Positions 1 to 51,720 of a stretch of 64,000 nucleotides of DNA are shown here, one piece after another; positions within the stretch are counted from its first letter, which is position 1; each line of letters begins with the position of its first letter. The position numbers and the translations under genes are program-made. A model generated the notes under the pieces. The model ran no database searches. It was given only the letters and a program-made list of their open reading frames with translations, and was not told the DNA's origin. Origin of the DNA: Pseudomonas baetica (GTDB lineage Bacteria > Pseudomonadota > Gammaproteobacteria > Pseudomonadales > Pseudomonadaceae); assembly GCF_002813455.1 (NCBI RefSeq), contig NZ_PHHE01000001.1, positions 5,018,001 through 5,082,000 of the forward strand. The letters are read 5' to 3'.

Positions 1-2
1 TC

Positions 3-1385
3 GAGTCCGCGGGCATCCGTCGCCAGGAGACCTTCGACGGGGTCGCGCTGTGCCACGGGCGATATCAGATTCCGCGCCACGCGCGGATTCCGGGGCTGGA
101 GTCCTTCACCGGCCAGGTGCTGCATTCGGGGCAGTATTTCGACAACGCGCCGCTGGCGGGCAAGCGGGTGCTGGTGATCGGCAATGGCGTCAGCGGCATG
201 GACATCGCCGGCGAAGCCAGCAAGGTCGCCGCCAAAGTCTATTGGAGCCTGCGCTCGCGCAAGTTCATCCTGCCGCGGATGGTAGGGTTCCTGCCCAACG
301 ACTTTGTCTCCCCGGCCAACCTGCTGATGCCCGCGGGGCTGCGGGCGCAGCGCAATATCGACCGCCTGCGCCTGGCGCTGCCGGCCTTCAGCGAGGCCCT
401 GCAGCGCAGCGGCTTGCAGCCGACCCTCAACGAGTTCCGCCAGCACCCCTTCATTCACATCAACGATGAGGTGGTGGACCTGGTCAACGCCGGGAAGATC
501 GAGACGATCTTCGGCCAGGTGGAAAAGTTCGTCGGCAACCGCTGCTTCCACCTCGGCCATGAACAGGTGCTCGAGGACATCGATGTGGTGGTGCTGTGCA
601 CCGGCTACCGCACCGGGGCGCTGTATGACTATGTGCAAGGCCTGGAGCCTGTCCGCGACCTGGCCATGGGGCTGTTCCACCGAGACGACCCGCTGTTGTT
701 CAACCAGTACGGGCTGCAGGAAATCGGCGTGATCGGCACCTTGCCGTACCTGGAGATGACTTCGCGCTGGTATGCCCAGGTGGTCTCCGGCAAGTACCGG
801 CTCAGCCAGCAGGAACGGCGGCAAACCGCCGATACCGACAAGATCATCATGGGCCCCCTGGCCAGCGTGGTGATCGGCCTGAAGCTCGGCCTGGTGCCGG
901 ACCCAGCGCGCGAATTCAAGGCCTTCTGGAGCCTGCTCAATACCCCGGGTTTTCCCGCCCAGTACCGCCTGCGCGGGCCCCACGCCAGCGCCGGGGCCGC
1001 GGCCATCGTCGCCGCGAGCCGCCAGCGCGCCTTTATCCAGGACGAAACCGGTGACGAGCAAATCAGTATCGTCAAGGCGCGCCTGCTGGCCGGCCTGGGC
1101 AGCGAGGCCGTGGCGCGCCTGGCGGCCGAGGGCCAGATTACTGCCGAGGAACGGCAGGCGGCCCTGGCCCGGCTCGACGATCCGTTGCGGCTCGACTGGG
1201 ACAGCCAGTTCCTCACGCCCCTCAGCGACCGGGCGCTGGCCATTGACCAGGCCACCCAATCCCAGGACGGGGTGATCGCCGAGCATGACCGCCTGTACCT
1301 GGGCCTGCTCCGCAAGATCCAGCGCAAAGAAATCAACGCAGACAACTTTCTGTCGGAACTGAAGAAAATCTCAAGGGCCTCGTGA
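3..1385 (+). CDS. Flavin-dependent monooxygenase, 3' part (predicted oxime-forming enzyme)
   Basis: The reading frame is open from base 3, so the start and N-terminal FAD-binding region lie upstream. The visible part carries the second, NAD(P)H-binding Rossmann motif (VIGNGVSGMDIAGEA, near base 180) and a C-terminal half like class B flavin monooxygenases (FMO/Baeyer-Villiger type), a group often recruited to trans-AT PKS lines. The last ~25 residues (LLRKIQRKEINADNFLSEL) look like the short helical docking tails of assembly-line proteins, so this is either a free enzyme that docks to the line or the C-terminal domain of a larger PKS/NRPS protein. From the predicted product I infer that it oxidises the amine of a glycine-derived starter to an oxime. 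A Baeyer-Villiger or N-hydroxylating role is the alternative. Its stop overlaps the ATG of the next gene by one base (TGATG). Confidence 0.85.
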   Translation, partial: ESAGIRRQETFDGVALCHGRYQIPRHARIPGLESFTGQVLHSGQYFDNAPLAGKRVLVIGNGVSGMDIAGEASKVAAKVYWSLRSRKFILPRMVGFLPNDFVSPANLLMPAGLRAQRNIDRLRLALPAFSEALQRSGLQPTLNEFRQHPFIHINDEVVDLVNAGKIETIFGQVEKFVGNRCFHLGHEQVLEDIDVVVLCTGYRTGALYDYVQGLEPVRDLAMGLFHRDDPLLFNQYGLQEIGVIGTLPYLEMTSRWYAQVVSGKYRLSQQERRQTADTDKIIMGPLASVVIGLKLGLVPDPAREFKAFWSLLNTPGFPAQYRLRGPHASAGAAAIVAASRQRAFIQDETGDEQISIVKARLLAGLGSEAVARLAAEGQITAEERQAALARLDDPLRLDWDSQFLTPLSDRALAIDQATQSQDGVIAEHDRLYLGLLRKIQRKEINADNFLSELKKISRAS

Positions 1386-50255: not shown

Positions 50256-50298
50256 ACCACTTGTCTGTTTTGATCAATCCATATCGAGGTTAATCGTA

Positions 50299-51720
50299 AT
50301 GAAAACGCTCAAGGATCTACCCCAACACCCAGGTCTGCCTTTGCTGGGTAATTTGCACCAGTTGAGTAAAGCCTCCATTTTCCTGTCACTTGAGCAATGG
50401 TCGCGGGACTTTCACCACGAACCGTTCCGCTTGCAAATGGCCCATATGCAATTCGCGGTCTTCAGCAAACCGGAGCAGGTGCGCCATATCCTCAAACACC
50501 GACCTTCGCAGTTCCGGGCTATGAAAGAGATGGCGAAACTGTTCGATGAAGTTGGCTTTAGCAGCCTGTTTACCGATGAAGGGGAAGCATGGAAGCGCCA
50601 GCGATCACAGATCATGTCGGCTTTTTCCAAACGCAGCCTGGTGGCGTTTACTCCACAGATCGCCACTACCGCCCTGAAATTGCGTGATCGCTTGCGCAAC
50701 AGCCTGGGGCAACCGTTCGACCTGCGGGATGACCTGCGGCGCTTTTCGGTGGATGCCAGTTGCCTGCTGGTGTTCGGCTTCGACCTCAAAAGCCTGGATA
50801 ACCACGACAACCAGTTTCTGCAGAACTTTCATGATGTGGTCAATACCATCAACAAACGCGTGCGGAGCGTGGTGCCTTATTGGCGGGTGCTCAAGCTGCC
50901 GTCCGACCATCGCTTCGACCGCTCCCTGATCAAACTCAAGAGCCTGGCGATCGAGATCGCGAGAGACACCCAGGCACGCATGCGCCTCCAGGAAGATCTG
51001 GGGCCCCATTGCATTCTGCATTCCATGCTCGAAGCGGCCAGCGGTGGCGACGGCATGCTCAGCGAAGATGAGCTTTTCGCCAACATGATGGCGCTGATTC
51101 TGGCCGGAGAAGGCACCACGTCGGCGATGCTCAGCTGGCTGTGTTTTTTCCTCGGGCAGGACTCAACGCTGCAGGACAACCTTCGCCGCGAAGTCGCTCG
51201 CTTGGATCTACATCAGCTTGACTATCACGCGCTGGCCGACCTGCCGCTGACGGAGGCGGTCATCGAAGAGGCCTTCAGGATCAAGTCCACGGTGCCCGGG
51301 TTGTTAGTGGAACCCCTGGAGGACACGATCGTCGACGATATCCTGCTGAAAAAGGGCACCAGGATCATTGTCCTGACTCGAGTCGATGGTTTGAAGAATC
51401 TGCAAGAGGACTCGGTATTCAACGCCTATCGCTGGCTGGACGAACAGCACGCCTTAATCGATACGAAAGAGGCGCGGCAGAAGCAGTTTCCTTTCGGATT
51501 CGGCCCTCGTTCGTGCCCGGCGGCACCTCTGGCCAACATTGAGCTGAAAGTGGCAGTGGCGATGCTGGTCAAGTACTTCGAGCTGGAGCTGATCGACAAG
51601 GAACAGGTGAAGGAAGTGTTCACCACCTCGGCGGTGCCGGATACGCTGAGGATCCGCCTCAGCGCCCGTGCAGAGCTGGAAATACCTGCGGCACGGGGCA
51701 CGGAAACCGATGCGGTCTGA
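50299..51720 (+). CDS. Cytochrome P450, post-PKS oxidation
   Basis: 473 residues, a usual P450 length. The I-helix motif is AGEGTT (around 270), the K-helix ExxR is EAFR (Glu324, Arg327), and the heme-ligand Cys406 lies in FGFGPRSCPAAP, where the glycine two residues after Cys is Ala. No signal peptide or membrane anchor is evident, so it is a soluble enzyme. A GAGG Shine-Dalgarno precedes ATG 50299. Only 50 bases separate it from the PKS operon and a terminator follows it, so it is probably the last gene of that transcript. Inference: it hydroxylates the carbon next to the lactone oxygen (C14) and/or epoxidises a ring alkene. The exact site cannot be read from sequence. Confidence 0.93.
   Translation: MKTLKDLPQHPGLPLLGNLHQLSKASIFLSLEQWSRDFHHEPFRLQMAHMQFAVFSKPEQVRHILKHRPSQFRAMKEMAKLFDEVGFSSLFTDEGEAWKRQRSQIMSAFSKRSLVAFTPQIATTALKLRDRLRNSLGQPFDLRDDLRRFSVDASCLLVFGFDLKSLDNHDNQFLQNFHDVVNTINKRVRSVVPYWRVLKLPSDHRFDRSLIKLKSLAIEIARDTQARMRLQEDLGPHCILHSMLEAASGGDGMLSEDELFANMMALILAGEGTTSAMLSWLCFFLGQDSTLQDNLRREVARLDLHQLDYHALADLPLTEAVIEEAFRIKSTVPGLLVEPLEDTIVDDILLKKGTRIIVLTRVDGLKNLQEDSVFNAYRWLDEQHALIDTKEARQKQFPFGFGPRSCPAAPLANIELKVAVAMLVKYFELELIDKEQVKEVFTTSAVPDTLRIRLSARAELEIPAARGTETDAV

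Follow-up and report, generated by a model that had tools for sequence, protein, structure and literature searches.

A trans-acyltransferase assembly line of Pseudomonas baetica predicted to make an oximidine-type O-methyloxime benzolactone enamide

The large biosynthetic locus in a 64,000-nucleotide stretch of the Pseudomonas baetica genome (contig NZ_PHHE01000001.1; hereafter the window) raises the question of what it makes, and of how far the order of its domains can identify the product. The window corresponds to genome bases 5018001-5082000 of a single-contig genome of 6,902,809 bases. An initial annotation, made without any database search, had read positions 1..51720 as a cluster for a benzolactone enamide of the oximidine type, and had pointed to a report of such a cluster from P. 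baetica. The analysis presented here arrives at the same answer. With a probability of roughly 0.9, the locus encodes a trans-acyltransferase (trans-AT) polyketide synthase/nonribosomal peptide synthetase (PKS/NRPS) line for making an oximidine-type O-methyloxime benzolactone enamide and belongs to the clade already published from Pseudomonas; it is probably the very locus described from P. baetica. Both the product family and the gene layout are already known, since the family, its biosynthetic model, the Pseudomonas clusters and oximidine III from P. baetica were published by Niehs et al. 2020 (PMC7318616). Benzolactone enamides inhibit the mammalian V-ATPase (PMC7318616).

The assembly line is encoded by six genes, A to F, all on the forward strand, and is cut by the window edge. 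An AT gene (genome 5012150-5014030) lies wholly upstream, as does most of gene A (1783 aa, adenylation (A, glycine)-peptidyl carrier (PCP)-ketosynthase (KS1)-oxygenase (OXY); genome 5014034-5019385; Pfam FMO-like, AMP-binding and KS), of which just part of the FMO-type oxygenase and the gene end, the last 1385 bases, fall within the window (1..1385). Counted in full, the line comprises 13 KS and two modules for glycine; because KS1 sits outside the window, the KS numbers used here exceed those of the initial annotation by one. Gene B (1385..5314) reads ACP-KS2-DH*-MT, with an acyl carrier protein (1535-1750), a non-elongating KS2 (1958-3172), a degenerate dehydratase (~3776-4474) and a methyltransferase (~4634-4921), as determined by profile searches and alignment. 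By the same means, gene C (5334..13652) reads ACP-KS3-DH-KR-ACP-C-A-PCP, comprising KS3 (5805-7013), a DH (7614-8504), a ketoreductase (KR, 9138-9743), a condensation domain (C, 10344-11693), a glycine-type A domain (11769-13238) and a PCP (13302-13508). Gene D (6043 aa, 13649..31780) follows with KS4-DH-KR-ACP-ACP, KS5-KR-ACP, KS6-DH-KR-ACP, KS7-KR-ACP and an inactive KS8 (30353-31531). Gene E (2347 aa, 31764..38807) is organized as DH-ACP-DH(shift type)-KS9-KR-ACP-KS10, the last KS again being inactive (37416-38600), and gene F (3813 aa, 38807..50248) as DH-ACP-DH(shift type)-KS11-ACP, KS12-KR-ACP and KS13-PT-like DH-ACP-TE, with the PT-like DH at ~48224-48994 and the thioesterase (TE) at 49382-50086. 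A cytochrome P450 gene (50299..51720, forward strand; Pfam p450 4e-62) carries the heme motif FGFGPRSC and is 58% identical to the necroxime P450. Profile searches recover the order of DH, KR and ACP domains, the terminal TE and the P450 just as they had first been described. The proposed range likewise takes in the PKS genes present and the P450, but the cluster itself starts upstream, with the AT gene and gene A, and runs on to 53330.

Alignment of the catalytic residues confirms which modules can be expected to elongate. Among the 12 KS of the window (one each in B and C, five in D, two in E and three in F), the complete Cys-His-His triad is found in nine, while the remaining three lack the first His, which is replaced by Gln in KS2 of gene B and by Asn in KS8 (D-5569) and KS10 (E-1885). 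These are exactly the nine elongating KS (2, 3, 4, 5, 6, 8, 10, 11 and 12 in the earlier numbering) and the three inactive-type KS that had been counted from the letters. The trans-AT character of the system is evident from the lack of any Acyl_transf_1 match in genes A-F and from the free-standing di-AT upstream. In this di-AT a single GHSxG-type motif was found, within the first AT. By Pfam, genes C-F hold no enoylreductase, cis-AT, further oxygenase or methyltransferase domain. Chance is excluded as the source of the match both by Pfam E-values, which reach 1e-242, and by the existence of a collinear homologue in a characterized producer.

The building blocks can be read from the A domains. 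Aligning the two with PDB chains and with one another yields the specificity letters DILQLGMIWK (A1) and DILQLGLIWK (A2), with the final K assumed in both; we take these letters to denote glycine. The same two codes occur in the necroxime and Rhizobium lines. The claim of one glycine module accordingly stands for the window, where the C-A-PCP at 10344-13508 carries the A2 code and is the second of the line, but not for the line as a whole, in which gene A supplies another upstream. The features associated with an O-methyl oxime, a glycine starter together with OXY, DH and MT domains, are all present, and the oxygenase of gene A has as its top PDB sequence match 8odw, a 'Polyketide synthase modules-related protein' (E 4e-188). 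Also present are three successive dehydrating steps, two of which are bimodules with paired DHs and a KS0. In the second DH of each pair, HxxxGxxxxP has Met at the Pro position and the Asp is replaced by Asn, a motif that we presume to mark the double-bond-shift clade. The published model places the DHs of its own modules 9 and 11 in that clade (PMC7318616).

From this domain order, each chemical step and the product of this strain can be predicted. A1 would load glycine, which the OXY domain would N-oxidize, and the degenerate DH and the MT would then complete the O-methyl oxime as the chain passes over KS1 and the inactive KS2; oxime formation and O-methylation are thus the functions predicted for gene B. 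Addition of one malonate by KS3 would give a methoxyimino-butenoyl unit, to which the C-A-PCP would add the second glycine, and KS4 would form the enamide. KS5 would provide the lactone hydroxyl; KS6, KS7/8 and KS9/10 would set up three conjugated alkenes; and KS11, KS12 and KS13 would leave keto, hydroxy and keto groups, from which the PT-like DH would form the salicylate ring before the TE closes a 12-membered lactone. This colinear reading is the one first proposed, and the glycine codes, the OXY/DH/MT cassette, the kinship of the KS domains and the necroxime gene order all agree with it. Nine malonates, two glycines and one O-methyl would amount to 23 carbons, and a hand count gives C23H24N2O5 for the unoxidized product ([M+H]+ 409.176). 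The P450, whose predicted role is a late oxidation, would shift this to m/z 425.171 with one oxygen or 441.166 with two. Oximidines I and II have 23 carbons.

The closest characterized system is the necroxime cluster nec of Mycetohabitans (Burkholderia) sp. B8, the producer of the necroximes, which are themselves benzolactone enamides (PMC7318616). Genes A-F of nec match the line studied here in the succession of KS, DH, KR, ACP, C and A domains, with protein identities of 54-58% (P450 included); inactive KS fall at the same positions and the glycine letters are identical. The gene order also corresponds, with AT-A-B on one contig and C-D-E-F-P450-PPTase on another. The B gene of nec is cut by the contig end, leaving the last 75 residues of B outside the comparison, and the OXY, MT and TE regions were covered by the pairwise protein alignments rather than by separate profiles.

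Several observations nevertheless weigh against an assignment as specific as oximidine, or against individual steps of the proposed route. The broadest concerns the congener: because the necroxime cluster has the same domain order, that order gives the skeleton common to oximidines and necroximes and does not fix the compound. The oximidine skeleton of the initial annotation is thus upheld as a shared skeleton, but the order from which it was derived encodes the necroximes equally well. In KS1 the triad is intact, yet the proposed product requires that this KS not elongate. In module 4, where the enamide would be formed, Leu replaces the Pro of HxxxGxxxxP in the window DH and in its six aligned relatives alike, and Glu replaces the catalytic Asp in the window and in one of the six, P0145 of P. 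chlororaphis. The PT-like domain as modelled with AlphaFold (7 rows, mean pLDDT 78, with three of the five models near 50) best matches PKS dehydratases (CurJ 5tz6, TM 0.76), and the PksA PT domain ranks 35th (TM 0.68). The model being closer to the dehydratases, and DH and PT not being told apart by fold, an aromatizing role is no more than proposed; a PDB sequence search with the domain returned no match at E 0.001. Finally, KS4 lies outside the clade of amino-acid-accepting KS, in which it had been expected as the acceptor of the glycyl chain.

The position of KS4 was examined in a FastTree phylogeny of 130 KS, dereplicated from the 600 that remained once rows with no, a partial or a DH-only upstream module had been left out, except for those of the window, necroxime and Rhizobium lines. 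Eighteen of the 24 KS directly following A-PCP form one clade with a support of 99, although similarity to the Rhizobium A-PCP-KS stretch was how most amino-acid rows had been collected, which biases the set to that kind. The remaining six are two stray rows (L035 and P0168_1917) and four KS1-type rows, a clade in which the window line's KS1 stands beside three further glycine-starter KS. Both KS4 and its necroxime orthologue, which are 78% identical, fall outside the clade; the nearest rows to KS4 carry mixed labels, and its best identity is 45% within the A-PCP-following clade compared with 57% to other KS outside its own orthologues. Forcing KS4 (three rows, with Vibrio P0150) together with eight trans-AT amino-acid KS, a group defined after the tree was seen, is rejected (delta lnL 85, p-AU 0.002), whereas forcing it with all 18 KS of the amino-acid clade is not (delta lnL 6.2, p 0.41). 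The initial annotation had held that a KS4 outside such clades would refute its reading. Because the necroxime orthologue, which belongs to an enamide-making line, is also outside, the position of KS4 does not refute the enamide. Elsewhere along the line, best hits and the tree show a kinship by upstream module that fits the predicted chemistry: DH-KR for KS5, KR for KS6, DH-KR for KS7, KS9 and KS11, and ACP only, hence keto, for KS12. Near KS13 there are just orthologues.

If domain order leaves the congener open, which member of the family is the locus likely to make? A product of the necroxime or CJ-12,950 type would come from the same line with a P450 that oxidizes the triene further (10-OH, 11,12-epoxide, 13-OH), possibly with a side chain added. 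The identical domain order, the 58% identical P450 at the same place and the PPTase at the same place would all accommodate such a product. However, nec includes the lysine NRPS NecA (PMC7318616), and the window cluster has no NecA-type NRPS. Between genome positions 4574833 and 5297427 no adenylation domain was found beyond the two glycine ones, and the absence of a lysine side chain from oximidines has been attributed to a missing NRPS1 gene (PMC7318616). Furthermore, protein D is 76-85% identical to its Pseudomonas homologues, compared with the 54-58% seen with the necroxime proteins, and the product found in P. baetica is oximidine III (PMC7318616). A necroxime-type product is therefore improbable. 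What favours the predicted assignment to the oximidines is the absence of a NecA-type NRPS, together with the grouping among Pseudomonas clusters and the product published for P. baetica.

The proteins of the line group with Pseudomonas homologues. The published Pseudomonas oximidine clusters have the oxime cassette, the glycine units, the paired DHs, the PT-like terminal DH and the P450, and lack NecA, as in the window (PMC7318616); no difference in architecture was found. Among the homologues listed, to which all protein counts here refer, the architecture of D is kept in six of six Pseudomonas-type rows, its own included (76-85% identity; P. chlororaphis, P. protegens and Pseudomonas sp.), and that of F in 10 of 10, again counting the one from the window (named rows: P. 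chlororaphis and Pseudomonas sp.). All named close homologues of the window PKS proteins come from Pseudomonas, and gene B is 77-83% identical to the Pseudomonas-type rows P0012-P0021, compared with 55% to the necroxime protein. The D row of Vibrio sp. S4M6 (P0150) differs, aligning at 46% over its best-aligned 3595 columns and having an FMO-like domain and another module order. This strain also has a B relative (P0026, 47%), and the two proteins possibly belong to another oxime-type line, in Vibrio.

As to the identity of the locus, the P. baetica genome paper (PMC5909648) lists a 94,211-bp trans-AT PKS-NRPS cluster and, in its antiSMASH table, four NRPS-containing clusters beside it. The genome analyzed here has four other multi-module NRPS loci and a 1188-aa frame with one A domain, a correspondence that is circumstantial. 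It is likely that the window represents the P. baetica locus rather than that of a very close relative.

A different line within the family was also considered, namely one of the lobatamide type, in which further oxygenase modules would place an extra oxygen in the backbone. Allorhizobium and Rhizobium clusters have been named lobatamide-type (PMC7318616), and from this naming and their domains we apply the term to the clusters of Rhizobium lusitanum p_1 and Agrobacterium vitis pRvVAR031a, whose products are predicted. These share with the window the A-PCP-KS start, the KS0, a homologue of B that extends across the MT region and the PT-like DH, as well as the PPTase, the metallophosphoesterase and an AT pair. 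Their module order after the starter differs from that of the window, however, and the sole oxygenase domain of the window line is in gene A, none being found in genes B-F by Pfam. In the lobatamide-type lines the KS that follows the second glycine falls within the amino-acid clade, and in Rhizobium its DH is canonical, unlike KS4 and the module 4 DH of the window. A lobatamide-type line is thus hardly credible for this locus. The comparison with the necroxime and lobatamide clusters, proposed at the outset, returns the same order at 54-58% identity in the one and a differing order in the other. In place of the two separate AT genes of the lobatamide-type clusters, the line studied here has a fused di-AT that is 61% identical to that of the necroxime cluster.

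The PT-like terminal DH belongs to a sequence family common to the F protein of the necroxime line and 10 proteins listed. At 1e-20 it occurs in one of 398 sampled Pseudomonas genomes, the window's own, and it is found in two of 72,556 plasmid records, those of R. lusitanum and A. vitis, both of whose clusters share the A-PCP-KS/KS0 start. A scan of one genome per species (84,980 species) confirmed one locus, that of Mycetohabitans sp. B8; the scan used two exact peptide patterns, of whose 42 matching stretches one was confirmed, and does not imply absence from other species.

Downstream of the P450, a metallophosphoesterase gene (51775..52530) and a 4'-phosphopantetheinyl transferase (PPTase) gene with a GTG start (52512..53330; PF01648 1.5e-20), both on the forward strand and overlapping by 19 bases, extend the cluster beyond 51720, and both are cluster members. 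A 434-aa frame at 52463-53767 was discarded as a gene, as it has no Pfam match and is overlapped by the PPTase frame. In the nec locus a PPTase likewise follows the P450 directly (39% identity); a search of the B8 genome for relatives of the metallophosphoesterase gave none at E 0.001. The metallophosphoesterase has homologues of 51% and 45% identity within the two lobatamide-type plasmid clusters, and it adjoins the PPTase in the window, A. vitis and R. lusitanum; the Pfam make-up of the window PPTase differs from that in the two plasmids. The gene is rare, being found at 1e-30 in one of 398 phylum genomes, its own. It occurs in 39 plasmid records, where 20 of the 25 matches listed are at or below 30.2% identity and five exceed 39%: the two lobatamide-type clusters, two V. 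nigripulchritudo plasmids and Tistrella pTM1. In the V. nigripulchritudo plasmid examined (one of the two) it stands directly after PKS-type genes, and in pTM1 no PKS genes adjoin it in the 31 kb viewed. It is not mentioned in the main text of PMC7318616. The enzyme may clear 3',5'-ADP, the by-product of the PPTase, or strip mis-loaded phosphopantetheine from the carriers.

The surroundings of the cluster raise the further question of whether this copy is active. Two IS3-family (IS2-like) insertion sequence (IS) copies of 1282 bases, 98.0% identical and in the same orientation (genome 5004922-5006203, L009:6922-8203; window 57338-58619), flank the entire cluster at a distance of about 69 kb from each other, in a composite-transposon-like layout. 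To the right of the cluster is a 12.4-kb integrative element, whose integrase and further phage-type genes are enclosed by repeats, with one mismatch, of the 3' end of tRNA-Gly(ccc) (window 61731-61755; genome 5092149-5092173). The idea of the cluster as cargo of this element was rejected, as both repeats (genome 5079731 and 5092149) are to its right. GC content is 64-71% over the PKS genes and 46-55% from 56 kb onward. A PAAR-motif protein and a Pyocin_S-domain protein (window 54308-55804 and 59200-59883) show partial matches to a type VI secretion system antibacterial DNase model, and a gene for an FlhC-like regulator is found at 55992-56642. Since flhDC-type regulators are unusual in Pseudomonas, this gene may be mobile-element cargo.

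A silent or broken copy that makes nothing would be compatible with the anatomy of an oximidine-type cluster, and both the flanking IS copies and mobile elements and the Asp-to-Glu change in the module 4 DH could be taken to indicate one. All large frames are open, however, with 16 of 16 carrier serines and the triads of the nine elongating KS intact; the P. chlororaphis protein P0145 has the same Asp-to-Glu change, and near-identical proteins are present in the protein collection (P0001, 99.9%; P0137, 99.8%). Loss of activity is thus very unlikely.

Taken together, the domain order, the homologues and the published product point to an oximidine-type line of the Pseudomonas clade. A tool-free reading of the sequence recovered this assembly line, but such a reading stops at the skeleton and cannot tell the congener. 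Judging from the tree, an amino-acid-clade KS after glycine is not a defining feature of the family. By sequence comparison, the glycine-receiving module (KS4-DH-KR) of the oximidine/necroxime branch is not orthologous to its lobatamide-type counterpart, its DH and KR being 27% and 44% identical to those of Rhizobium and 61% and 63% to those of the necroxime line. We tentatively suggest, as a combined and rather doubtful proposal, that the metallophosphoesterase may work with the PPTase and that the module may have been exchanged at the boundary between proteins C and D with the enamide step unchanged. The possibly exchanged glycine-receiving module and the phosphoesterase pose two testable questions, on the evolution and on the upkeep of benzolactone assembly lines.

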